64,000 bases of DNA from positions 1,426,001 through 1,490,000 of the forward strand of contig NZ_JACCBJ010000001.1 of the NCBI RefSeq assembly GCF_013408745.1, in the 5' to 3' direction. The translations under genes were made by a program, and so were the position numbers. This document shows, one piece after another, positions 45,366 through 57,930 of this stretch. The number at the start of each line of letters is the position of its first letter. The stretch's first letter is position 1. The notes below the pieces were generated by a model, which was given only the letters and a program-made list of their open reading frames with translations, was not told the DNA's origin and made no database searches. The stretch is from Leifsonia soli (lineage in GTDB: Bacteria; Actinomycetota; Actinomycetes; Actinomycetales; Microbacteriaceae).

Positions 45366-46538
45366 TCAGCGCACGGCCTCCTGCCGCGCCGGCAGCGGCT
45401 CCGGCGCCGCGGGTCCGACGTACCGCGAGGACGGCCGCAGGATCTTCCCGTCGGCCGCCTGCTCCAGGATGTGGGCCGTCCATCCCACCACGCGCGCCGC
45501 GGCGAACGTCGGCGTGAACATCGACCGGGGGATGCCGCACAGCTCCATCACGACGCCCGCGTAGAACTCCACGTTCGTGTGCAGCTCGCGTCCCGGCTTC
45601 AGCTCGGCGAGGAGCTCCTGCACGCGCCGCTCGACCTGGACGGCGAAGTCGACCCGCGGGCCGCCGAACCCCTCGGCGAACGCGCGGAGCATGCGCGACC
45701 GCGGGTCCTCCGTCCGGTACACCGCGTGCCCGAAGCCCATCACCCGGCCGCCCTGCGAGAGCGTGCGGCGCACCCACTCGTCCGTCCGGTCGGGCGTGCC
45801 GATCTCGTCCAGCGTGTCCAGGGCCCGGCTCGGCGCTCCGCCGTGCAGGGGGCCGGACAAAGCGCCGAGCGCCCCGCCCACCGCCGACGCGAGGTCCGCC
45901 CCGGTGGATGCGATCACCCGCGCCGCGAACGTGGAGGCGTTGAACCCGTGGTCGATCGCCGCGGTCATGTACGCGCTGAGCGCGCGCTCCTCCTGCTGCG
46001 TCGGAACGCGCCCGGTCACCAGGTGGAGGTACCCGGCGACGTAGCCCAGATCGTCGCGGGGCTGCGCCGGCTCACGGCCGTCGGCGAGCGCGTGCAGCCG
46101 TGCAAGCAGAACGGGGGTGACCGCGGCGGTCCGGATCGCGTCCTCCACCCGGGCATCCGCGCTCTCGTCGTACAGCGGACGGGCGCCGTCGGCCGCCGCG
46201 ACAGCGGTGAGCGCCATGCGGAGGCCGGCCAGCGCATCCCCGCCGGAGGTCAGCCGCGCGATCGCCGGGAGCAGCTCGATCACGGCGGGCGGAATCGATC
46301 GCGCCGCTGCGATCCGCGCGCGGAACGCCGCCAGCTCGTCGGCGGTCGGCAGCGCGCCGAACAGCAGGAGGTGCCACGCCTCCTCGAAGGTCCGCTCCCG
46401 GGCGAGATCCACCGCCGAGTACTGCCGGTAGTGGTAGAAGCCTTCGTGCCCGCGCACGTCGCCGAGCTCGGTGCGCGCGGCCACGACGTTCGTGAGGCCG
46501 CGCGGAACGTCGATGAGGGTGTCGTCCATCCTGTCCAT
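45366..46538 (-). CDS. citrate synthase family protein
   Basis: A 390-residue citrate synthase-like enzyme condensing acetyl-CoA (or propionyl-CoA) with oxaloacetate. Catalytic His232 lies in GPLHGGA and His271 in MGFGHAVY. The position of the catalytic Asp is Glu324, in TNVEFYAG, instead of the usual NVDFYSG. DHGFNASTFAAR also fits. The length is typical. ATG 46538 is chosen; ATG 46529 is an alternative. It is divergent from a second citrate synthase family gene across a short operator-like gap. A 2-methylcitrate synthase role is possible. Confidence 0.88.
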   Translation of the reverse strand: MDRMDDTLIDVPRGLTNVVAARTELGDVRGHEGFYHYRQYSAVDLARERTFEEAWHLLLFGALPTADELAAFRARIAAARSIPPAVIELLPAIARLTSGGDALAGLRMALTAVAAADGARPLYDESADARVEDAIRTAAVTPVLLARLHALADGREPAQPRDDLGYVAGYLHLVTGRVPTQQEERALSAYMTAAIDHGFNASTFAARVIASTGADLASAVGGALGALSGPLHGGAPSRALDTLDEIGTPDRTDEWVRRTLSQGGRVMGFGHAVYRTEDPRSRMLRAFAEGFGGPRVDFAVQVERRVQELLAELKPGRELHTNVEFYAGVVMELCGIPRSMFTPTFAAARVVGWTAHILEQAADGKILRPSSRYVGPAAPEPLPARQEAVR

Positions 46539-46570
46539 ATCGGTAGTGTGAACGTGGATGCAACACATCG

Positions 46571-46589
46571 TCAATGTTGATTGGATCAA
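46571..46589. promoter_or_regulatory. operator-like TCAA/TTGA palindromes between two citrate synthase genes
   Basis: TCAATGTTGA (46571-46580) and TTGATTGGATCAA (46577-46589) are overlapping perfect palindromes sharing TTGA. This AT-rich site lies in the gap between the divergent start codons at 46538 and 46591, next to a gene whose product has a DNA-binding helix-turn-helix. It is a plausible autoregulatory operator; binding is not shown. Confidence 0.5.
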
Positions 46590-46590
46590 T

Positions 46591-47796
46591 ATGGATGCCC
46601 TCCCCCGCCTCACCGCCGAGCAGACCGCCGAGCGGCTCGGTGTGAAGCTGGAGACCCTGTACGCGTACGTCGCGCGCGGGCGGCTCGGCCGCGAGCGCAC
46701 CGCCGACGGCTCCAGCTTCGATCCGCTGGAGGTCGAGCGCTTCGCCGCGAGCAGGCGGCGGCGACCGCCGGCCGACGCCGACCGCTCGGAGGGCCGCCCG
46801 CTGATGGTCATCGAGACGGACTTCGCCTCCATCGAGGACGGCGAGTTGCGCTACCGCGGCCGTCCCGTCGACCAGCTCGCCGCGGAACCGTTCGAGACGG
46901 TCGCGCACTGGGCCCTCACCGGAGCCTGGGATGCGACGGCTCGCTTCGCGGCGGGCGCGGGCCTCGACGCAGCCCGGGCCGTCGCCGTCGCCCTCCCGGC
47001 CGCGGCGGGAGACCGGGACCGCCAGCTCGTCGCCGTGAGCGCCTTCGCGGCCGCCGACCCGCTGCGCGCCTCCCTCGACCCGGTCGTGGTGGCCTCGGCC
47101 GCCGAGCGCCTGGTGGCCGGGATGGTCGAGGTGCTGCCCACGCACGCCGACGCCGACCCCGATCTCCCCTCCCGCCTGTTCGCCCGGCTCGCCCCGCGCG
47201 CCTCCGCGGCGCCGGCGGCCGACGTCGCCCTGCTCAACGCCGCCCTCGTGCTGCTGCTCGACCACGACATCGCCGTCTCGACCCTCGCCGCCCGCGCGGC
47301 CGCCTCCGCGCGCGCCACCCCCTACGGCGTCGTCGTCGCCGGACTGGGAGCGCTCGACTCGCCCCTCCACGGGAACGCCAGTCGCGCGGCCCACCGTCTG
47401 CTGGAGCGCGTCGTCTCCGGCGAGGACCCGGCCCGCGCCGTGGCCGACGCCGTCGTCACAACGCACGGACCCGTCCCTGGGTTCGGCCAGCCGCTCTACC
47501 CCGACGGCGACCCCCGGGCGCGCATCCTGCTCGGGATGATCGCCGACGACCCCCGGCATGCCGCCGTCACGGCCGCCGTGCGGGCGGTCTGCGACGTCGT
47601 GCGCGAGCGCACCGGCGCGCATCCCAACGTCGACCTCGCTCTCGGTGCCGCCACCCTCGCCCTGGGGATGCGCGACGACGCGGGCGAGGTGGTCTTCGCC
47701 ACGGCCCGCACGGTCGGCTGGATCGTGCACGCCATCGACGAGTACGCGCAGCGCCCGCTGCGCCTGCGGCCGGTCGGCCGCTACACCGGCCCCTGA
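46591..47796 (+). CDS. citrate synthase-like protein with N-terminal helix-turn-helix; probable regulator
   Basis: A 401-residue protein. Residues about 7-60 are a MerR/excisionase-type helix-turn-helix (LTAEQTAERLGVKLETLYAY, then ARGRLGRERTADGSSFDPLE). The remainder is a citrate synthase fold. His260 (SPLHGNAS) and Asp348 (NVDLALG) are kept, but the second catalytic His is Gln300 (GFGQPLY) and DHDIAVST lacks the conserved Asn. This pattern suggests a ligand-sensing transcription factor rather than an enzyme. ATG 46591 is chosen over ATG 46558 because the latter would place the palindromic site inside the coding region. Confidence 0.82.
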   Translation: MDALPRLTAEQTAERLGVKLETLYAYVARGRLGRERTADGSSFDPLEVERFAASRRRRPPADADRSEGRPLMVIETDFASIEDGELRYRGRPVDQLAAEPFETVAHWALTGAWDATARFAAGAGLDAARAVAVALPAAAGDRDRQLVAVSAFAAADPLRASLDPVVVASAAERLVAGMVEVLPTHADADPDLPSRLFARLAPRASAAPAADVALLNAALVLLLDHDIAVSTLAARAAASARATPYGVVVAGLGALDSPLHGNASRAAHRLLERVVSGEDPARAVADAVVTTHGPVPGFGQPLYPDGDPRARILLGMIADDPRHAAVTAAVRAVCDVVRERTGAHPNVDLALGAATLALGMRDDAGEVVFATARTVGWIVHAIDEYAQRPLRLRPVGRYTGP

Positions 47797-47871: not shown

Positions 47872-48531
47872 TCAGCGGCGGAGCGCCTTGCGCGCCAGCC
47901 AGTTCCCGAGGAACTGCGCGGCCTGCACCAGCACGACGATCGTGATCACCGCGATCCACGTCACGGCCCAGTTGTAGCGCTGGTACCCGTACGAGATCGC
48001 GAAATCGCCGAGGCCGCCTCCGCCGATGCTGCCGGCGATGGCGGACAGGTCGACGATGGCGACGAAGATGAAGGTGTAGCCGAGGATGAGCGGGCCGAGC
48101 GCCTCGGGGATCAGCAGGGTCGTGATGATCCGCCACGGGCTCGACCCCATCGCTCTTGCGGCCTCGATCACGCCCGGCTCGATGGTGACGAGGTTCTGCT
48201 CCACGATCCGCGAGATCCCGAAGGTCGCTGCGATCGTCATCGGGAAGATCGCGGCGGGCGTGCCGAGGAACGTGCCGAGCACGAACTGCGTCAGCGGTGC
48301 GATCGCGGTCATGAAGATGATGAACGGGATGGGCCGGATGAAGTTGACGACCACATTGAGCACCGTGAAGAGCGCACGGTTCTCGAGCAGTCCGCCGCGC
48401 CGCGTCGTGTAGAGCAGGACGCCGAGCGCGAGGCCGAGGATGCCGCCGAGCACGAGCGTGGCGACGACCATCCACAGCGTCTGGCCGATGGACTCCAGGT
48501 ACACCGGCCACAGGGTCGACCAGTCGGTCAT
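47872..48531 (-). CDS. metI: methionine ABC transporter permease
   Basis: A 219-residue integral membrane permease with five predicted helices. ARAMGSSPWRIITTLLIPEA is the EAA loop that contacts the ATPase, and GGGGLGDFAISYGYQRYNWA is characteristic of MetI. ATG 48531 overlaps the metN stop. The set metQ-metN-metI takes up methionine (D- and L-forms in characterised systems). No substrate-determining residue is identifiable, so a related substrate cannot be excluded. Confidence 0.94.
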   Translation of the reverse strand: MTDWSTLWPVYLESIGQTLWMVVATLVLGGILGLALGVLLYTTRRGGLLENRALFTVLNVVVNFIRPIPFIIFMTAIAPLTQFVLGTFLGTPAAIFPMTIAATFGISRIVEQNLVTIEPGVIEAARAMGSSPWRIITTLLIPEALGPLILGYTFIFVAIVDLSAIAGSIGGGGLGDFAISYGYQRYNWAVTWIAVITIVVLVQAAQFLGNWLARKALRR

Positions 48532-49571
48532 GCCGCCACCTCCTCGACCTCGGTCACCGCGCGGAGCTCGGCGATCAGCGCATCCACATCGCCGGGCTCG
48601 CCGAGGAGCTCCAGCGTGAGGCTGCCGAACGACCGGCCCTGCAGCGCCGAGATGCCGCCGTAGACGATCTCGAAACGGACGTTGTGGCGGCCCACCGCGT
48701 CCGACAGCACCGACCCGAGACGGCCGTCGTCGTGGATGCGCGCCGAGACGATCCGCCCGGCGTGCTTGCCGCGGAGACGCTCGATGTCCGCCTCCCCCGG
48801 CTGGTTGCGCAGGACCGTGCCGACGAACCGCCGCGCCGTCGGCGTCTGCGGGTCGGAGAAGACCTCGAACACCGTGCCCTGCTCGATCACCCGGCCGGCG
48901 TCGAGCACGGCGACGCGGTCCGCGATCGAGCGCACCACCTCCATCTCGTGCGTGATGACGACGATGGTGACGCCGAGCTCGCGGTTGACGCGCGCGAGCA
49001 GGGCGAGAACGTCCGACGTGGTCTCCGGGTCGAGCGCGCTGGTGGCCTCGTCCGCGAGCAGGATGTCGGGGTTCGTCGCCAGCGCTCGGGCGATCCCGAC
49101 GCGCTGCTTCTGCCCGCCGGAGAGCTGATCGGGGTAGCTCCACGCCTTGTCGGTGAGCCCGACGAAGGCGAGCAACTCGGCGACGCGCTGCTTGCGCTTG
49201 TCCGCCGGCCACCCCGCGACCTTGAGCGGGTAGGCGACGTTCCCGAACACCGTGCGCGAGCGGAACAGGTTGAACTGCTGGAAGATCATGCCGATCCCCG
49301 CGCGCACGCCGCGCAGCTCCCGTTCCTTCAGCTGCGTGAGATCCCGGCCGTCCACGATCACGGACCCGGCGGTGGGATGCTCCAGGGCGTTGATGAGCCG
49401 CACCAGCGTGCTCTTGCCCGCACCCGAGTAGCCGATGATCCCGAAGATCTCGCCGCGCGCGATCGTCAGGTCGAGCCGGTCGACGGCCGGAACCGCGGCG
49501 TCACCGGAGCCGAAGCTCTTGGTGACGCCGCGGAACTCGATGATCGGCGACGCGCTGTCGCGGTCCCCCAC
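48528..49571 (-). CDS. metN: methionine ABC transporter ATP-binding protein
   Basis: A 347-residue ATPase with Walker A GYSGAGKST, signature LSGGQKQRVG and Walker B ILLADEATSALDPETT. A C-terminal NIL domain (about 275-345) is present, which binds methionine and inhibits transport in characterised MetN proteins, so feedback control is likely. The start is GTG 49571, overlapping the metQ TAG; the stop overlaps metI. Confidence 0.95.
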   Translation of the reverse strand: MGDRDSASPIIEFRGVTKSFGSGDAAVPAVDRLDLTIARGEIFGIIGYSGAGKSTLVRLINALEHPTAGSVIVDGRDLTQLKERELRGVRAGIGMIFQQFNLFRSRTVFGNVAYPLKVAGWPADKRKQRVAELLAFVGLTDKAWSYPDQLSGGQKQRVGIARALATNPDILLADEATSALDPETTSDVLALLARVNRELGVTIVVITHEMEVVRSIADRVAVLDAGRVIEQGTVFEVFSDPQTPTARRFVGTVLRNQPGEADIERLRGKHAGRIVSARIHDDGRLGSVLSDAVGRHNVRFEIVYGGISALQGRSFGSLTLELLGEPGDVDALIAELRAVTEVEEVAA

Positions 49572-50518
49572 TACTTGGCCGCCTCGATGGTCTTCTTGAG
49601 GCCGTCGAGGATGCCGATCAGGTCGGACTGGGGGCGATCGACGATGACGGCGGTGTTCTTCGACTCGGCGAGCACCGCGTCCGTCACGGCCTTCGTGTGG
49701 TACAGCTTCGCGATCTTCAGGTACGTCGGGTTGTCCTTGTCCTTCTCACGGGCGACGAAGGCGTTGATGTACGGCTCGGCGGTCTCCGACTTCGGGTCGT
49801 CCTGGAACAGCGCCGACTTCGGGTCGATGCCGGCGGTCAGGGCGTAGTTGTTGTTGATGATGGCGCCGTCGGCCGAGCTGAGCGCCGGTGCGGTCTGGGC
49901 CGCGTCCACCGGGATGACCGTGACCTTGGAGGCGGCGGCGTCGATGTCGGCGGGCGTGGCCAGGGTGCTTCCGCCGTCGTTGAGCTTCAGCAGTCCGGCC
50001 TTCTGCAGCACCAGCAGAGCGCGCGCCTGGTTGGTCGGGTCGTTCGGGATGGCGATCTTCCCGCCCTGGGGGATGCTCTCGAGGCTGGTGTGCTTGGTCG
50101 AGTACAGCGGGAGCGGGACGACGAGGGTCGAACCGATCGGCACCAGGTTCTGCTTCGCCTGCACGTCGTAGTTGGCGAGGAACTGCAGGTGCTGGAACAG
50201 GTTGAGGTCGAGCTGGCCGTCGGCGAGCGCCGGGTTCGCCTGCGTGTAGTCGCGGAAGTTGACGGTCTGGATGTCGATGCCCTCCTTGGCCGCCTCCTTC
50301 TTCAGGACGGCCCAGTACGGCGAGGACGCCTCGGTCGTGCCGATCTTCACCGTCACGCTCTTCGCGGTGGCGGCGCCCGACCCCGTGAGGTTCACGACGA
50401 CCAGCACGACGGCAACGATGACGGCGACGACCGCGATGCCGATGCCGACGAACAGGCCGGTGCGGGAGCGCTTCGGCTTCTCCGGAAGGGCGGGGGTGGA
50501 CGGGGTGGCGTCGGACAT
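49571..50518 (-). CDS. metQ: methionine-binding protein (NlpA family), membrane-anchored
   Basis: A 315-residue substrate-binding protein. FRDYTQANPALADGQLDLNL and GGKIAIPNDPTNQARALLVL are typical of MetQ. The N-terminus has a cytoplasmic stretch (MSDATPSTPALPEKPKRSRT) and a single hydrophobic helix (about residues 21-43), without the lipobox Cys usual for Gram-positive MetQ. It should be held by an uncleaved transmembrane anchor. First gene of metQNI; a hairpin-free 202-base gap precedes it, with no recognisable SAM riboswitch. Confidence 0.93.
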   Translation of the reverse strand: MSDATPSTPALPEKPKRSRTGLFVGIGIAVVAVIVAVVLVVVNLTGSGAATAKSVTVKIGTTEASSPYWAVLKKEAAKEGIDIQTVNFRDYTQANPALADGQLDLNLFQHLQFLANYDVQAKQNLVPIGSTLVVPLPLYSTKHTSLESIPQGGKIAIPNDPTNQARALLVLQKAGLLKLNDGGSTLATPADIDAAASKVTVIPVDAAQTAPALSSADGAIINNNYALTAGIDPKSALFQDDPKSETAEPYINAFVAREKDKDNPTYLKIAKLYHTKAVTDAVLAESKNTAVIVDRPQSDLIGILDGLKKTIEAAK

Positions 50519-50720
50519 GGCTGCGCCTCTCTCTCGTGAAGGGGGGTGTGTGCCGACGGACGGTGTGGCGGCACGTCCGAGCCTCCCCCGAGCCGCGGAC
50601 GACGGTCAAAACGTCTTGCGAAATGTGACGCCGCCCGTTCACCGGACCGCCCTTACGGAGGCGCTGGGCCGCGCGTAGGGTGAGGGGCGTCAGCGTTCCC
50701 GCGGACGGAGTGGAGACGGA

Positions 50721-50975
50721 ATGAGCGACATCAACGACGACGACATCACCACAGACGCGGTCGGCGGCGGCGAAGGCCCCGCGGACGGCGGAGCGAATCC
50801 CGGCGGCCACGACGGCGGAGCCGACGGCTCGGCCGCGGGCGAAGGCCCGGCCGACGGCGGAGCGAACCCCGGCGGCCACGACGGCGGAGCCGACGGCTCG
50901 GCCGCGGGCGAAGGCCCCGCCGACGGCGGAGCCAATCCCGGCGGCCACGACGGCGGAGCCGACGGGTCCGCTTGA
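50721..50975 (+). CDS. Gly/Asp-rich tandem-repeat protein, coupled to a JmjC hydroxylase
   Basis: An 84-residue protein. Residues 1-16 are an acidic leader (MSDINDDDITTDAVGG), followed by three units of 23, 23 and 22 residues with sequence GEGPADGGANPGGHDGGADG plus a short SAA end. Each unit has one His (30, 53, 76) in NPGGHDGG. The protein is hydrophilic and contains no Cys or signal peptide. Its TGA shares a base with the ATG of the downstream hydroxylase (TGATG), so translation is coupled. It is divergent from metQ. Not related to any enzyme family I recognise; the arrangement suggests a substrate. Confidence 0.8.
   Translation: MSDINDDDITTDAVGGGEGPADGGANPGGHDGGADGSAAGEGPADGGANPGGHDGGADGSAAGEGPADGGANPGGHDGGADGSA
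50769..50972. repeat. three tandem 69-base coding repeats
   Basis: Units at 50769-50837, 50838-50906 and 50907-50972 (the last lacks one codon) differ by only a few third-position changes and encode identical 23-residue blocks. Recent duplication or selection to keep the peptide identical would explain it. Confidence 0.95.
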
Positions 50976-52330
50976 TGACGACCCAGGAGCGCGGGCCGGG
51001 CGACCGGCCCGCGCTTTCGCGTTGCGTGCCGGTCGACCGCGCGGAGTTCGCGGCCGACCACTGGGGCCGGAAGCCGCTGTTCACCCGCGCCGCCGCGCTC
51101 CCCGACGACTTCTCCGACCTGTTCAGCATCGACGCCGTCGACGAACTCGTCTCGGCGCGCGCCATCCGCACGCCGTTCGTCCGCATGGCGAAGGAGGGAG
51201 CCGTCCTCCCGCCGTCGCGGTTCACCGGCCCGGGCGGCTTCGGCGCGGAGGTCGGCGACCAGCTCGACTCCGCGAAGGTGCTGGCGGAGTTCGCGGACGG
51301 AGCGACCCTGGTGCTCCAAGGGTTGCACCGCACCTGGCCGCCGATCGCGGAGTTCGCCCGGCGCCTCGCCGTCGAGCTCGGGCATCCCGCCCAGGTCAAC
51401 GCGTACATCACGCCGGCGTCGTCCCGCGGCTTCGACCCGCACTACGACGTGCACGACGTGTTCGTGCTGCAGATCGCCGGGGAGAAGCACTGGCGCATCC
51501 ACGAGCCTGTGCATGTCGACCCGTTGCGCGATCAGCCCTGGAGCGACCGCCGCGACGCCGTCGCCGCCCGCGCCGAGGAGGCGCCCGCGATCGACGAGAC
51601 CTTCCGCCCCGGCGACGCGCTGTATCTGCCGCGCGGATGGATCCACTCGGCGGAGGCCCTCGGGGGCGTCTCTGTGCACCTGACCATCGGCGTCGCCGCC
51701 TACACGCGCCACGACGTGGTCCGCGAGGCCGTCGCCCGCGCGGCCGACGCCGCCGCACTGCGCAGTTCGCTCCCGCTCGGGTTCGACCCGGCGGACCCCG
51801 AGGCGGTCGCCCCGATCGTCGAGGAGACGGTGGAGGCGCTGATCGCCGCGCTGAGCGACCCCTCCTCGCGTTCTGCGGTCGCCGACGCGGTGGCGGGCCG
51901 CCTGCGCCGTCGGCAGCGGTCGGACACCCCGCCCGCTCCCGTCCGCCCGTTGGAGACCATCGGCGCCGCCGCGGATCTGACCGTCGACAGCGTCGTCGCC
52001 GCGCGCCAGGGACTCGTCCCGGACGTCACGGTGGAGGTGGAGACGGTCACCGTGCGGCTCCCGACCAAGACGGTGGCGCTGCCGATCGCCGCCCGCGCGG
52101 CGGTCGAGCGGCTGCTGGACGGGCGTCCGGTCGCCCTCGGTGAGCTGCCCCTCGACGAGCGCTCCGCGGTCGTCGTCGCGCGGCGGCTGCTGCGCGAGGG
52201 GATCCTGGTGCCGCAGCCGGGCTGGGCGGACGCCGCCTACCCGGACGTCGACCCGGCGGATGATGCGGGCGTGTCGAGCGACGGCGAGCGGAGCGCGACC
52301 GCCGACTTCGGGACCGCGACAGCGACGTGA
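50975..52330 (+). CDS. JmjC/cupin-4 family 2-oxoglutarate-dependent protein hydroxylase (ROXA/YcfD-like)
   Basis: A 451-residue enzyme. The N-terminal region has FAADHWGRKPLFTRAA, a ROXA-family hallmark, and ITPASSRGFDPHYDVHDVFV, in which His156 and Asp158 form two legs of the Fe(II) facial triad; His224 in RGWIHSAEAL is the third. ROXA proteins hydroxylate Arg or His in ribosomal proteins (YcfD, MINA53, NO66). The C-terminal winged-helix-like region follows. ATG 50975 overlaps the preceding stop and its TGA overlaps the next GTG. Confidence 0.9.
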   Translation: MTTQERGPGDRPALSRCVPVDRAEFAADHWGRKPLFTRAAALPDDFSDLFSIDAVDELVSARAIRTPFVRMAKEGAVLPPSRFTGPGGFGAEVGDQLDSAKVLAEFADGATLVLQGLHRTWPPIAEFARRLAVELGHPAQVNAYITPASSRGFDPHYDVHDVFVLQIAGEKHWRIHEPVHVDPLRDQPWSDRRDAVAARAEEAPAIDETFRPGDALYLPRGWIHSAEALGGVSVHLTIGVAAYTRHDVVREAVARAADAAALRSSLPLGFDPADPEAVAPIVEETVEALIAALSDPSSRSAVADAVAGRLRRRQRSDTPPAPVRPLETIGAAADLTVDSVVAARQGLVPDVTVEVETVTVRLPTKTVALPIAARAAVERLLDGRPVALGELPLDERSAVVVARRLLREGILVPQPGWADAAYPDVDPADDAGVSSDGERSATADFGTATAT

Positions 52331-53310
52331 CCGGTCTCCCGCCGCGCACTTCCGTGCCGGATGCCGGCTCCGGGGCTCCCGGAGACGGCGTCCGCGCCGA
52401 ATCCGCGCGGGCGCCGGCCGGAGCCGGAGAGTGGATGCCGTGCAGCGATCGCGCCCTGCAGCGCGACGACCCGCTGGCCGGCACCGCAGGCTTCGGCGAA
52501 CGCTGGCTGCTCGTGGAGATCGAGAGCGGATGGGGTCGGCACGCGTTCTTCGACTCCGCCCTCGATCCTGCACTCGGGGCGCGCGTGGTGGCGCGAGCCG
52601 AGGAGGCGGGCATCCGTCCGCTCGCGATCCGGCGCACCCGGCTGCGGGCGCCGCTGCGTCGCGACCAGACGTCGTGGCGGTGGGCGCTGGTGGACTGCCG
52701 CCCCGGGCGGGAGGGCATCCGCTGGGGCGCGGTGGACGACCCCGCCGAGCTGCTGACGCTTCCGCTCGACGGGAGCGCCGGCGAACCCAGTGAAGCGCCG
52801 ATCTACGCGGTGTGCGCGCACGCCCGGCACGACCAGTGCTGCGCGGTGCGCGGGCGGCCGGTGGTGGAGGCCCTGGCCGCCGAGCATCCCGAGCTGACCT
52901 GGGAGTGCTCCCACCTCGGTGGGGACCGCTTCGCCGCGACGATGATCGCGTTCCCGGAGGGGCTCCTCTACGGCCGGGTCGGCGCGGAGGACGCCTCCCG
53001 CGTCGTGGAGCGGCACGCGGAGGGCCGTGTCGTTCCGGAGCTCCTCCGCGGACGCACCTGTCTGAGCACGGTCGCGCAGGCGGCGGAGGCGTTCGCGCGC
53101 GCCGAGACCGGAGACGACCGCATCGCGGCGTTCCGGCCGCTGGCCGAGCATCCCCACCCGCACGGCTGGACGGTCGAGCTGGCGCACGGCGACGATCGCC
53201 TCACCGTGGAGGTGGGCGAGCGGCTGTCCGAGCCGCTGCTGAGCACGTGCGCTGCGACCATCGCCCGGCCGGTCCGCGAGTTCGTGCCGGTGTCGGTCAG
53301 TAGTGCATGA
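52327..53310 (+). CDS. sucrase/ferredoxin-like [2Fe-2S] protein
   Basis: A 327-residue protein of the sucrase/ferredoxin-like (Apd1/SUCRFDX) family with a thioredoxin-like fold. CAHARHDQCCAVRGRPV carries the first Cys pair and WECSHLGGDRFAATM the second cluster site; the usual second His (HxGGH) is Asp here. Apd1-type proteins hold a [2Fe-2S] cluster with His/Cys ligands. The start is GTG 52327, overlapping the hydroxylase stop (GTGA). It may supply electrons to the hydroxylase pathway or keep it reduced; that is inference. Confidence 0.85.
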   Translation: MTGLPPRTSVPDAGSGAPGDGVRAESARAPAGAGEWMPCSDRALQRDDPLAGTAGFGERWLLVEIESGWGRHAFFDSALDPALGARVVARAEEAGIRPLAIRRTRLRAPLRRDQTSWRWALVDCRPGREGIRWGAVDDPAELLTLPLDGSAGEPSEAPIYAVCAHARHDQCCAVRGRPVVEALAAEHPELTWECSHLGGDRFAATMIAFPEGLLYGRVGAEDASRVVERHAEGRVVPELLRGRTCLSTVAQAAEAFARAETGDDRIAAFRPLAEHPHPHGWTVELAHGDDRLTVEVGERLSEPLLSTCAATIARPVREFVPVSVSSA

Positions 53311-53314
53311 CGCT

Positions 53315-53349
53315 GCCGGTGTGCGCGACGTGAGGCCGCGCACACCGGC
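53315..53349. terminator. terminator hairpin between convergent genes
   Basis: GCCGGTGTGCGCG (53315-53327) pairs perfectly with CGCGCACACCGGC (53337-53349) around a 9-base loop, between the ferredoxin-like and VOC genes. Confidence 0.78.
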
Positions 53350-53356
53350 GGTCGGA

Positions 53357-53779
53357 TCAGGCGTTCTGCGTCGCGGGTGTCGACTGCAGGATGCGCACCA
53401 TGTTGCCGGACGGGTCGCGGAAGGCGCAGTCGCGAGGACCCCACGGCTGGTCGATCGGCTCCTGGAGGACCTCGGCTCCCGAAGCGCGCACGCGCTCGAA
53501 GGCGGTGTCGAGGTCGTCGGTGCGGAACACGGTCGGGCTCAGGGAGCCCTTGACGACGAGCTGCGCGAGCGCGTCGCCGTCCGCCTGGGAGCGGCCTGCG
53601 TGGGGGTCGCTGAGCACGACGGCCGCGCCGTCGTCGCCGGCCACCCCGAGGGTGACCCAGCGGTGGTCGCCGGAGGTGACGTCCTGGATGACGTCGAGGC
53701 CGAGGGCGTCGCGGTAGAACGCGAGCGACTCCTCCGGGTCGAGGACGGTGATCTGCGAGTACTGGAGTGAAACGGTCAT
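53357..53779 (-). CDS. VOC/glyoxalase-fold protein
   Basis: A 140-residue two-module VOC protein: SQITVLDPEESLAFYRDALG begins module one and FRTDDLDTAFERVRASGAEV begins module two, with FRDPSGNMVRILQ at the end. It resembles extradiol-dioxygenase/glyoxalase relatives that bind metals or drugs. It lies downstream of the AraC gene on the same strand and may be its target. Start ATG 53779. Confidence 0.85.
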   Translation of the reverse strand: MTVSLQYSQITVLDPEESLAFYRDALGLDVIQDVTSGDHRWVTLGVAGDDGAAVVLSDPHAGRSQADGDALAQLVVKGSLSPTVFRTDDLDTAFERVRASGAEVLQEPIDQPWGPRDCAFRDPSGNMVRILQSTPATQNA

Positions 53780-54333: not shown

Positions 54334-57300
54334 TCAGCCGACCGGCAGCGCCGCGCTGCGCTCTGCCCCCTCCACCAGCCGGATGAACGCGCTCAGCTCC
54401 CCCACCCCGGCGGGAGTGGTCGGGAGGAACTCCGTGAGTTCGGGCGAGTGCACGAGGTACGCCGCCCACTTCGCCCGCGAGATGGCGACGTTCAGCCGGT
54501 TCTTCATGAGGAGGAACGACACACCGCGCGGCACATCCACCGCGGACGAGGCCGCCAGGCTGACGATGGCGACCGCGGCCTCCTGGCCCTGGAACTTGTC
54601 GACCGTCCCCACCCGGACCTCCCGGTGCCCGGCCGCGTCGAGCAGCGCCCGCACCTCGGCGAGCTGGGCGTTGTAGGGCGTCACGACGATGATGTCGTCC
54701 TCCGCGAGGGGGTCGTCGATGCGTCCGGCATCCGGGTCGCTCCACGAGCGGCCGAGCAGGTCGTCGACGAGGGCGACGACGGTCTCGGCTTCCTCCGGCG
54801 ACGAGGTCGAGTTGCCCACGTGCAGCACCGGCACGGGATGCACACCCGGGGCGACCCCGCCGAGCTCGCGGTCGGACGCGCCCTCGTGCGCCCGGAGCCT
54901 GCCCTCGTACGAGAGAGTGGACACGGCGGCGGCGAGAGCGGGATGCATGCGCCGCGTCTCCGCGAGGAAGTACCCGTACTCCGCCGGCAGCACGTCGTGG
55001 CCGTCGCTCACCCAGCCGAGCGCGGAGCCGTCGACCGGCTCGGGGTGCCGCCCCTGGCTGACCTGCGGCAGCTGCTGCGGATCGCCGAGCAGCAGGAGGT
55101 TCTTCGCCGCGACTCCGACCGCGATCGTGGAGGCCAGCGAGAACTGCCCGGCCTCGTCCACCACCATCAGGTCGAGGCTGCCCCGCGGGACACGTCCCGC
55201 GTTCGCGAAGTCCCACGCGGTGCCGCCGAGCACGAATCCGCGCTGCTCATTGACGCCCGCGAACTCGAGATGACCGTTGGCCGCCAGAGGCGTGAAGCGA
55301 GGTGGCATCTCCGCGGCTGTCTGCGTAGCGGCGGCCGTCTCCGTCTCCGAGGCCGGCTCGGCGGCCGGCACGCCCGCCGCGGCCGCCTGCTCCGGCCGGG
55401 AGCCGCCGCTCGGCACCTTGCCGACCTGATCGGGGTCGAGGCCCGCCGCCACCACCCGGTCGAGCAGATTCTCGACGACGGCATGGGACTGCGCCACCAC
55501 TCCGACCTTCCAGCCGTGCTCGGCCACCAGCCGCGCGATGACGTGCGCGCCCAGGTAGGACTTGCCGGTCCCCGGCGGGCCCTGAACCGCCAGATAGGAC
55601 CGGTCGAGATCGAGCAGGCTCGCCACGACCGCGTCGATCCGCCCGGTGCCGTCACCGCCACCGCCGGTGTCGCCCCGCTCCGACGGATCCGGAACGAGCG
55701 CGCCCGATCGCGTGCGCGGCGGTGTGCGCCGCAGCAGATCGATCGTCGCATCCACCGGCCACGTCTCGTGATGGCGCGCGATCAGCAGGGCGGTGCCCCA
55801 CTCGCGGATCGCCTCGCCGAGCCGCCGGGAGTCCGGCGGTGCCGCCGGGGTGAGCGCGCTCGGCAGGTCGCGGTACGGAGCGACCTCGGGGGGAAGGGTC
55901 TCGCGGACGACGACCGAGCCGTCGTCGAGCGCGTCGATCACCGCCACCGTGCGGGCGGCCCGCGCTCCGGGCTGAGCCCGAGGCTGCCGGAACGGCCCCG
56001 GGTACTCGTAGAGCAGGTACGGCCCGGTGCGTTCGCTCACGCGGACGGCGCTCCCCGCACCCCAGGCGCCGGTGAGCAGCAGTTCGCGCCGCTCGACGCG
56101 CTGTCCCTCGTCGAGATACCAGTCGCGCAGCACGGTCGCGCTCTCCACGACGAGCACGTCGCGCGTCTCGCCCCACTCCTCGATCGGCTGGATCAGCCGC
56201 GAGAAGTGCGACTGCCAGAAGCTCTTCTGCTCGCGCCGGTGGAAGTCGATCGCCGCAGCGGCGAGGGCCATCGCTCGACGATCCGCATCGCGATGCGGGT
56301 CGAGCGGGTCACCGGCGAAGGCGAGCAGCCCCGCCCGCAGCGGCGACGCCTCGGGCGACGCCTCGGTCTCCTCCATCGGCGCCGCGCCGATCGGGATGCC
56401 GTTCTCGGTCGCGCGGGCGATCAGCCAGTCCCGCAGGCGCAGCGTGGAGACGCAGTCGTAGCGGTTGTAGTCGCCGATGTCGTCGAGGAGCGGCTGTGCC
56501 TCCTCCAGCCGGCCGAGCGCGATCAGATCTCGTGCATTCGCGTATTCGGTGATCGAGTCGGCGCCCGTCGTCACGTCGCTCTCGCGGAGCTCGTCGCCCA
56601 TGTAGAGCGGCTCGAGCTTCTTGATCGAGTACGACCGCGACCCGACGCGGACCGCCTTGCGCACCAGCGGGTACAGGTCGACCATCACGTTGTCGCGCAG
56701 CAGGCCGTCGACCTCCTCTTCGCCGACGCCGTGCCGGGCGGCGAGGGCGAGCAGGTGGGTCTGCTCGTAGGCCGCGTAGTGGTAGATGTGCATGCCGGGG
56801 TACTGGGCGCGGCGTTCGCGGACGAACGCCAGGAAGGCCTCCAGCGCCACACGCTCCGCCGCGAAGTCGTGCGCCCAGAACGCGGTGAACCGCTCCTCCT
56901 GGTCGACCAGGCCGAACAGGTAGTCGAGGTTCCACCGCTCGCCTGCGCCCTCGGTGTACAGCGGGTCGCCCTCGAAGTCGAAGAAGATGTCGCCGGCATC
57001 GGGATGGGGCAGCACCGCCAGCACCGGCGCGTTGAAGACGCGCACCGGCGGCGGGGCGTCCGGCACCGCCTGGAGCTGGAGGCGTGCCTGCTCGCGCAGC
57101 CCGTCGAGCGTGCCATCGGGGATGCCGTCGACCGGCCCGGTCGAGGCGGCGAGGGAGTCGATGGTCGCGATGCCCGCCGCGAGCAGGTGCTCGCGCTGGG
57201 TCACGCGCATCCCCGCCACCAGCAGCACGTCGCGGGACGCCTGCACCTCGGCGTCGCACGTTTCGCAGCGCCCGTCGACGGTGAAGCGCGGATCGCCCCA

Positions 57301-57930
57301 GGCGACCGGCCCCGCATCGGCCGCGTGCTCCGCGACGATCGTCAGCAGCCGGGCGCGCCGCTTGCGGTACACCGGCTCGATGTCGGTCAGAGAGTGCTCG
57401 CTCACCGACCCGTCGCCGAGAAGCAGCTCGACCGTGTCGTCGACATCCACGCCCATCCGTCGCAGCTGTTCCGCGTAGGCGGCGAGCTGCAGCAGCGCCG
57501 TCACGCGGGCGCTGCGGGCGAGCTTGGAGTCTTGCACGCGGTAGCGGCCGTCGGGCAGCCGCACGACGAAGTCGGCGAACCCGACGAACGACCCGTCGAA
57601 GAAGGTCGCCTGGAAGACGACCTCCGCCCCGCGCTCGAAGGCCTCGGACGTGCGGCGGACGGCGTCGGCGAGGGCGTCGGCCGTCAGCTGCTCGGGACGC
57701 TCGATCTCGGCGACGCCGCTCCCGAATCGCTCGCGGTAGCGCTCGAGGATGCGGTGCTCGTGCTCGTCGCCCATGCGCGACGACCGCACGTACATCGGAT
57801 CGTCGATCTCTTCGGTCTTCTCGAGCCGGCCCAGCTTCACGTCGAGCGTGCGGAGGAAGGCGAACTCGCACTTCGACGCCTCGGTGAGGTCGCTGGCGCT
57901 CGTAACGATGATCCCGTCGAGCAGGAACAC
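54334..57930 (-). CDS. TM0106-type RecB-like nuclease-superfamily 1 helicase
   Basis: A 1198-residue protein. The N-terminal part (about 1-200) has FADFVVRLPDGRYRVQDSKL, the RecB-like D...DSK nuclease core. The middle has IFFDFEGDPLYTEG, an RNase H-like segment of TM0106 proteins. The C-terminal helicase (about 750-1190) has Walker A VQGPPGTGKSYLG, motif II VVDEAGQF, GDPQQLPQV, VDKFQGQE and NRLNVAISRAK, the DNA2/NAM7-type superfamily 1 set. Architecture suggests DNA or RNA end processing. No recombination genes adjoin it. Confidence 0.92.
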   Translation of the reverse strand: MFLLDGIIVTSASDLTEASKCEFAFLRTLDVKLGRLEKTEEIDDPMYVRSSRMGDEHEHRILERYRERFGSGVAEIERPEQLTADALADAVRRTSEAFERGAEVVFQATFFDGSFVGFADFVVRLPDGRYRVQDSKLARSARVTALLQLAAYAEQLRRMGVDVDDTVELLLGDGSVSEHSLTDIEPVYRKRRARLLTIVAEHAADAGPVAWGDPRFTVDGRCETCDAEVQASRDVLLVAGMRVTQREHLLAAGIATIDSLAASTGPVDGIPDGTLDGLREQARLQLQAVPDAPPPVRVFNAPVLAVLPHPDAGDIFFDFEGDPLYTEGAGERWNLDYLFGLVDQEERFTAFWAHDFAAERVALEAFLAFVRERRAQYPGMHIYHYAAYEQTHLLALAARHGVGEEEVDGLLRDNVMVDLYPLVRKAVRVGSRSYSIKKLEPLYMGDELRESDVTTGADSITEYANARDLIALGRLEEAQPLLDDIGDYNRYDCVSTLRLRDWLIARATENGIPIGAAPMEETEASPEASPLRAGLLAFAGDPLDPHRDADRRAMALAAAAIDFHRREQKSFWQSHFSRLIQPIEEWGETRDVLVVESATVLRDWYLDEGQRVERRELLLTGAWGAGSAVRVSERTGPYLLYEYPGPFRQPRAQPGARAARTVAVIDALDDGSVVVRETLPPEVAPYRDLPSALTPAAPPDSRRLGEAIREWGTALLIARHHETWPVDATIDLLRRTPPRTRSGALVPDPSERGDTGGGGDGTGRIDAVVASLLDLDRSYLAVQGPPGTGKSYLGAHVIARLVAEHGWKVGVVAQSHAVVENLLDRVVAAGLDPDQVGKVPSGGSRPEQAAAAGVPAAEPASETETAAATQTAAEMPPRFTPLAANGHLEFAGVNEQRGFVLGGTAWDFANAGRVPRGSLDLMVVDEAGQFSLASTIAVGVAAKNLLLLGDPQQLPQVSQGRHPEPVDGSALGWVSDGHDVLPAEYGYFLAETRRMHPALAAAVSTLSYEGRLRAHEGASDRELGGVAPGVHPVPVLHVGNSTSSPEEAETVVALVDDLLGRSWSDPDAGRIDDPLAEDDIIVVTPYNAQLAEVRALLDAAGHREVRVGTVDKFQGQEAAVAIVSLAASSAVDVPRGVSFLLMKNRLNVAISRAKWAAYLVHSPELTEFLPTTPAGVGELSAFIRLVEGAERSAALPVG

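Follow-up and report, generated by a model that had tools for sequence, protein, structure and literature searches.

The window analysed here, 64,000 nucleotides of Leifsonia soli (contig NZ_JACCBJ010000001.1, positions 1,426,001 to 1,490,000), is part of a 3.92-Mb single-contig Leifsonia genome and carries at 50721-53310 three overlapping genes, which encode an 84-aa tandem-repeat peptide, a 451-aa JmjC oxygenase dependent on Fe(II) and 2-oxoglutarate (2OG), and a 327-aa Suc_Fer-like protein. On comparative grounds we consider it probable that these genes form a cassette like those of ribosomally synthesized and post-translationally modified peptides (RiPPs), in which the JmjC enzyme oxidises, probably by beta-hydroxylation, many Asp-Gly sites in the peptide. 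The pairing of the peptide and enzyme genes across many actinobacterial families suggests a previously undescribed family of peptides modified by an enzyme. For an oxygenase of the NO66 type, it also supplies a candidate substrate that is linked genetically and conserved in 19 or more family-level groups within a single bacterial class.

A preliminary description of the window had proposed the repeat protein as a dedicated, multi-site substrate of the hydroxylase and had suggested checking whether the two genes occur together in related genomes. Among 28 Leifsonia genomes, the enzyme query matched 17, of which 15 were close (at least 71%, own genome included) and two were non-orthologous (G006, 31%; G013, short, E = 6e-4). 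The peptide query matched 14/28 genomes, namely the 15 close-enzyme genomes minus G002, whose enzyme begins at base 24 of its contig so that the upstream peptide region is cut; the other 13 Leifsonia genomes gave no peptide by this query. A contig scan across genera returned 33 loci, 28 actinobacterial and 5 gammaproteobacterial. The repeat peptide lies upstream in 28/28 actinobacterial loci (Leifsonia, Subtercola, Curtobacterium, Agromyces, Geodermatophilus, Blastococcus, and one Microbacteriaceae metagenome-assembled genome; the peptides of L030 and L037 are cut by the contig end) and in 0/5 gammaproteobacterial loci, where the enzyme shows 23-26% identity. Five of the 28 loci repeat genomes of the genus set; these and L055, the window's own genome, were excluded from the subsequent counts. 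Plasmid records gave 127 enzyme matches, all below 60% identity.

A class-wide search with an alignment of 21 enzymes matched 130/394 genomes at E <= 1e-10, and the peptide was present at 30/30 of the best 30 loci (own genome included). Sixty more places were then added, comprising all those listed to E 5e-50, except additional fragments of a gene already included, and a manually chosen sample of weaker matches. With enzyme scores of at least 340 bits there were 100 non-duplicate loci, 99 of them evaluable, and 94 have a peptide with DGx repeats directly upstream; the five exceptions (L109, L112, L113, L116, L117) carry other Asp-rich small open reading frames (ORFs), as judged by eye. Between 200 and 340 bits the DGx-repeat peptide was found in 4/9 evaluable loci (10 in all); by eye, L120 and L125 carry other Asp-rich small ORFs and no repeat peptide was recognised in L119, L121, and L122. 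Below 200 bits it was found in 1/22 evaluable loci (23 in all), and this sole positive (L133) is part of a longer neighbouring frame. In the reverse search, the peptide alone matched 27 of the same 394 genomes at E <= 1e-6; all 27 are enzyme-positive, with the best match at most ~250 bases upstream on the same strand (coordinates compared by eye). This search misses peptides with other repeats; its result is that close copies do not occur away from the enzyme, and it is no measure of their rarity. The pattern by which RiPPs are recognised, a short precursor with leader and core co-conserved beside a modifying enzyme, is thus found in 94/99 loci and in 27/27 genomes of the reverse search. Such strong co-conservation supports the repeat peptide as a dedicated partner of the JmjC hydroxylase, as had been proposed, and makes a multi-site substrate the best reading of its role.

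In the class sample, DGG peptides occur at loci of 19 family codes (f1, 4, 5, 11, 14, 16, 25-28, 34-37, 42, 43, 46-48). In a quick enzyme tree of 118 rows, 93 DGG-bearing rows fall in one branch of 96 (SH-aLRT 96), which also holds L109, L112, and L015; the next rows to join, on long branches, are L113 and L116. In a neighbouring group of 11 rows (support 80), six rows have peptides of the DGTD or DADSTD type and L129 has another Asp-rich peptide (labels assigned by eye). We also noted a sister JmjC group (L120, L123-L126, L129) whose enzymes adjoin peptides that resemble the present one in their acidic leader; their repeats are Asp-rich but of other types (DGTD, DADSTD), and His is nearly absent.

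The peptide gene encodes 16 leader residues followed by 23 + 23 + 22 residues of GEGPADGGANPGGHDGGADGSA(A), with nine Asp in the repeats altogether. Tandem Repeats Finder reported a single array in this gene (69 bp x 3.0 copies, 94% matches, score 368), and together with the ORF it bears out the acidic leader and the three near-identical blocks of the preliminary description. For 45 pairs from 10 of the 14 Leifsonia peptides, the ratio of nonsynonymous to synonymous polymorphism (pN/pS) was 0.20, a value that repeat homogenisation and codon bias could lower and that is not a measured selection strength. The low pN/pS shows that the ORF is a coding gene whose protein sequence is constrained, and together with the recurrence beside the enzyme in many families it marks the peptide as more than a chance frame. 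A Pfam search gave no match for the peptide, NCBIfam gave none for the peptide or the enzyme and sub-threshold matches only for gene 3, and no such peptide family was named among the open-licence papers listed for the terms searched.

The enzyme matches JmjC_2 (PF08007) at 95.6 bits against a cut-off of 22 (E = 2e-27), and its best solved relatives by sequence are NO66 and MINA53 (E ~1e-18). Residues H156, D158, H224, and K171 show no variation across 21 aligned sequences, one of which is the window's own; we take K171 to be the likely 2OG contact. The AlphaFold2 (AF2) model has a mean predicted local distance difference test (pLDDT) score of 84.0 and a predicted template modelling score (pTM) of 0.79, with residues 417-451 below a pLDDT of 50. 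Foldseek aligned this model to NO66 with E = 1.1e-24, a template modelling (TM) score of 0.64, and 23% identity. The predicted structure thus has an NO66-type overall fold with a C-terminal winged helix, and the sequence has an HxD...H iron triad, in agreement with the ROXA/NO66-like oxygenase with intact triad that had been recognised from the sequence.

Next, we considered which residue is modified. In 94 scored cores (L014, L063, and L087 were trimmed because the open frame ran on upstream) there are 1139 Asp residues, 1005 of them before Gly; the preceding residue is Ala in 847 cases and His in 167. Asp is the reactive side chain that is always present (0/94 cores without it), partly through how the cores were found, and the sister peptides found by position are also Asp-rich. 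The preliminary description favoured hydroxylation of the one His found in every NPGGHDGG repeat. Such a target would agree with the retention of this His in the repeats of all aligned Leifsonia and other Microbacteriaceae peptides and with the structure titles of NO66 and MINA53, which name them as His hydroxylases. Across the wider set, HDG is absent from 29/94 peptides and His from 12/94 cores. Nine of these 12 are complete peptides without any His; of the remaining three, L037 is truncated by the contig end, and in L070 and L071 a single His immediately precedes the scored core. The core of L093 is made up of Ala, Asp, and Gly only. On the enzyme tree the HDGG label changes 13 times, at least 8 of them forced, vs 39.5 changes in shuffles, a distribution that is clustered but labile on this tree. 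One general His target is therefore ruled out for the family, and modification of His in each repeat is in our judgement very improbable. The His-less peptides and the constant Asp make Asp the preferred target, more likely than His on these residue counts, with Gly and Ala as possible targets.

The C-terminal domain of the enzyme suggests how the peptide might be engaged. Folded alone, residues 322-418 gave a model with pLDDT 84.2, whose top Foldseek matches are the NO66/MINA53 winged helix (TM 0.70-0.75 to NO66 in nine matches below E 0.001). After these come ThcOx, LynD, TruD, GodF, TbiB1 with leader, PqqD (TM 0.59), and McbBCD at E 0.03-0.2. Passages of Bregman et al. 2025 (PMC12710340) define the RiPP recognition element (RRE) by a strand-strand-strand-helix-helix-helix order, and describe PF08007-RRE fusions and bacterial homologues in RiPP-like contexts. 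The winged-helix similarity and these fusions support, and do not prove, leader binding by the C-terminal domain. In the mechanism that we propose, the acidic leader would bind the winged-helix, RRE-like domain, as the fold suggests, and the Fe(II)/2OG centre would then oxidise the repeat region at many sites; judging from the residues kept, the likeliest reaction would be Asp beta-hydroxylation in D-G-(G/S/T) motifs. Where a Suc_Fer-type [2Fe-2S] protein is encoded, its probable role is to donate electrons that maintain the iron in its reduced state.

Several observations weigh against this mechanism. Peptides and cores were recognised by DGx motifs, which makes the Asp-Gly constancy partly one of construction, and the exceptions were judged by eye. 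The acidic leader motif, as scored, precedes the core in 73/94 peptides and is missing from 21/94. A Pfam search of residues 322-418 gave no match. The similarity of this domain to RiPP proteins is weak (E 0.03-0.2), and YcfD, ribosomal, viral, and other proteins are interspersed with those matches and follow them in the ranking. The AF2 models were built from an alignment of only 21 sequences. In the cores Gly and Ala show the same constancy as Asp, and either might instead be the target. Finally, no protease or transporter recurs beside the genes in 21 neighbourhoods of ~17 kb (elsewhere in the genomes was not searched).

The constancy of Gly and Ala leaves room for a different oxidation of the repeats, for example by alpha-oxidation of Gly or Ala with backbone cleavage or by cross-linking. 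There is precedent in passages of PMC12636437, where, in a RiPP, a different 2OG class (HExxH) both hydroxylates Gln strings and cleaves the backbone at Ala, and where a Cys-Tyr cross-link by a 2OG enzyme is cited. Partners for a cross-link (Cys, aromatics) are missing from the cores, and the few that were counted stem from the run-on frames L014, L063, and L087 and from L133. Side-chain hydroxylation is the known activity of NO66-fold enzymes, and we regard these other chemistries as unlikely, with Asp beta-hydroxylation as the preferred reaction. The missing protease and exporter, together with the action of the closest solved relatives on ribosomal proteins, would also suit a peptide that is a bound partner, metal buffer, or regulator of an oxygenase acting on a ribosomal or other cell protein. 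The many near-identical tandem motifs, the RRE-like domain, the precedent of a JmjC enzyme in a RiPP pathway, and the varied Asp-rich peptides beside sister enzymes fit a substrate better, and we rate the bound-partner explanation as distinctly improbable.

The third gene matches Suc_Fer-like PF06999 at 69.7 bits against a cut-off of 34.9 (E = 4.6e-19). In 14 gene-3 sequences C163, C171, C172, and H196 are invariant, and position 200 is Asp or Cys (HLGGDRFA or HLGGCRFA in 14/14, one as HIGGDRFA). Position 200 presumably corresponds to the second His of Apd1, which we take to belong to PF06999; on this correspondence an Apd1-type ligand set of two Cys and two His is lacking in 14/14 gene-3 sequences. 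The earlier label of a [2Fe-2S] ferredoxin-like protein needs one correction: gene 3 encodes a putative [2Fe-2S] protein of the thioredoxin-like Suc_Fer/Apd1 type rather than a classical ferredoxin. A 2Cys2His site in a thioredoxin-like ferredoxin domain is described for Apd1 in passages of PMC11126956, which describe no role with an oxygenase.

The Suc_Fer gene follows the enzyme in 16/21 neighbourhoods (20 plus the window); with shorter flanks it lies beside 23/30 of the best class-wide, 14/15 of the genus-set, and 27/28 of the named-set enzymes. Ten genomes were searched whole for Suc_Fer, most of them picked because a local copy was unseen, and the outcome is therefore not a frequency: G014, G145, G122, and G223 keep the peptide-enzyme pair with no match at E 0.001, G073, G120, G091, and G106 have only a distant match away from the enzyme, G111 has Suc_Fer beside the enzyme, and G280 has it on another contig. 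Since 4/10 genomes lack a match and 4/10 have a distant copy only, Suc_Fer was rejected as an obligatory partner. By these gene counts the protein, for which the preliminary description proposed a supporting role, is a frequent accessory and is not required. No gene family besides the peptide, the enzyme, and Suc_Fer recurs beside the enzyme in the 21 neighbourhoods, where clusters common to up to six sit at scattered positions; a larger gene cluster was rejected on this basis. Three f36 loci without a Suc_Fer gene have a conserved 85-107-aa ORF after the enzyme with an SRDILE-EGRPE-AWW ending (L147:9280-9604, +; L149:9328-9586, +; L151:7739-8018, -); one was checked and had no Pfam match.

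Four known systems resemble parts of the cassette. The ROXA-type enzymes NO66, MINA53, and YcfD (PF08007) share the fold over most of its length, the winged helix included, and the same HxD...H set; here, in contrast, the gene overlaps a dedicated repeat-peptide gene, identity to NO66 in structural alignments is 21-24%, and His is an unlikely target. BipG, a JmjC enzyme, is described in passages of PMC12707348 as a gamma-Orn hydroxylase in biphenomycin RiPP biosynthesis, and BipG/BpmG likewise act on a ribosomal precursor peptide (PMC12707348; PMC12257519). The biphenomycin cluster has a multinuclear non-heme iron-dependent oxidative enzyme (MNIO), a B12-radical S-adenosylmethionine (SAM) enzyme, an arginase, and a protease, whereas in the present cassette the JmjC enzyme is the sole recurring modifying enzyme. 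The present cores are tandem DGG repeats, unlike biphenomycin, and the likeness to BipG is in enzyme type and in the proposed kind of substrate. The JmjC-RRE fusions (PMC12710340) combine PF08007 with an RRE-like domain, as the present enzyme may do; the repeat peptide and the three-gene cassette are not described in main-text parts of that paper (figures and supplements excluded). Asp beta-hydroxylation in other RiPPs by other enzyme classes is reported in passages of PMC12636437 and PMC13060819. Gene 3, for its part, shares with Apd1/Aim32-type [2Fe-2S] proteins the PF06999 match and the invariant C163, C171, C172, and H196, and differs in the Asp or Cys at position 200.

If Asp is the target, the cassette would offer a short biosynthetic path to peptides carrying many beta-hydroxyaspartates, and a way to approach the origin of ribosomal oxygenases and their winged-helix domain. 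A bolder proposal, which we put forward as speculative and rather doubtful, is a widespread actinobacterial peptide class in which one JmjC enzyme converts ~4 to >20 Asp residues of a tandem-repeat peptide into beta-hydroxyaspartate. The product would be a ribosomally made poly-hydroxyaspartyl metal binder retained inside the cell or at its surface, and the NO66-type winged helix would be identical with the RRE as a leader-binding module. Were the latter true, it would link eukaryotic ribosomal oxygenases to peptide-modifying enzymes.

The features of the locus are listed in Table 1. The peptide stop (50973-50975) overlaps the JmjC ATG at 50975 as TGATG, and the JmjC gene overlaps gene 3, with its GTG start at 52327, as GTGA; the three-gene overlap reported earlier is confirmed in these ORF coordinates. 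The divergent upstream neighbour is an NlpA-type lipoprotein gene, and the downstream neighbour, on the other strand, encodes a glyoxalase-type protein. The conserved block upstream of the peptide could act as a promoter, either for the cassette or for the lipoprotein gene that diverges from it; the alignment of upstream regions from 14 Leifsonia loci gave no promoter assignment.

Table 1. Coordinates of the cassette and its features in the window.
Feature	Position	Strand	Basis
Upstream conserved block	50606..50630	.	Alignment of 14 Leifsonia upstream regions; GAAATGTGACG part identical in 14/14
Repeat peptide, proposed precursor/substrate	50721..50975	+	84-aa ORF, repeats, enzyme pairing
Leader region MSDINDDDITTDAVGG	50721..50768	+	Acidic motif precedes core in 73/94 peptides
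Repeat 1, 23 aa	50769..50837	+	ORF and repeat analysis
Repeat 2, 23 aa	50838..50906	+	ORF and repeat analysis
Repeat 3, 22 aa	50907..50972	+	ORF and repeat analysis
JmjC Fe(II)/2OG oxygenase, NO66-like fold, 451 aa	50975..52330	+	PF08007 2e-27; NO66 best solved relative
H156-Y-D158 iron ligands	51440..51448	+	H156, D158 invariant in 21 sequences
K171	51485..51487	+	Invariant in 21 sequences
H224 iron ligand	51644..51646	+	Invariant in 21 sequences
C-terminal winged-helix domain, residues 322-418, RRE-like	51938..52228	+	AF2 model, Foldseek; without Pfam match
Suc_Fer-like putative [2Fe-2S] protein, accessory, 327 aa	52327..53310	+	PF06999 4.6e-19; follows enzyme in 16/21 neighbourhoods

An Rfam scan of 48000-53400 gave just two matches, both below threshold, and a known RNA element at the locus was rejected. 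One of them, ASdes, lies inside the JmjC gene at 51701-51759 (-) with 26.7 bits against a threshold of 40 and is probably due to chance.

Among more distant relatives of the enzyme, those of f24 adjoin short peptides, e.g., the L130 peptide ending in DNDGTDGSSDFI. A cupin-annotated, JmjC-type enzyme on an S. clavuligerus plasmid (35% identity) is preceded by a 48-aa peptide rich in Asp and Pro, with an S9 peptidase and an ABC transporter nearby in a RiPP-like cluster (L165:4775-10783). An S. avidinii relative has a 45-aa ORF with little resemblance to the repeat peptide, and a Pseudanabaena relative lies near a LanM gene. Elsewhere in the window, two opposite citrate-synthase genes, 45366-46832 (-) and 46558-47796 (+), overlap at their starts as listed ORFs, and the latter has a sub-threshold helix-turn-helix match at its N-terminus. 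At 54337-57930 (-) lies the gene of a large protein of the nuclease-helicase type with RNase_H_2 and AAA helicase domains.

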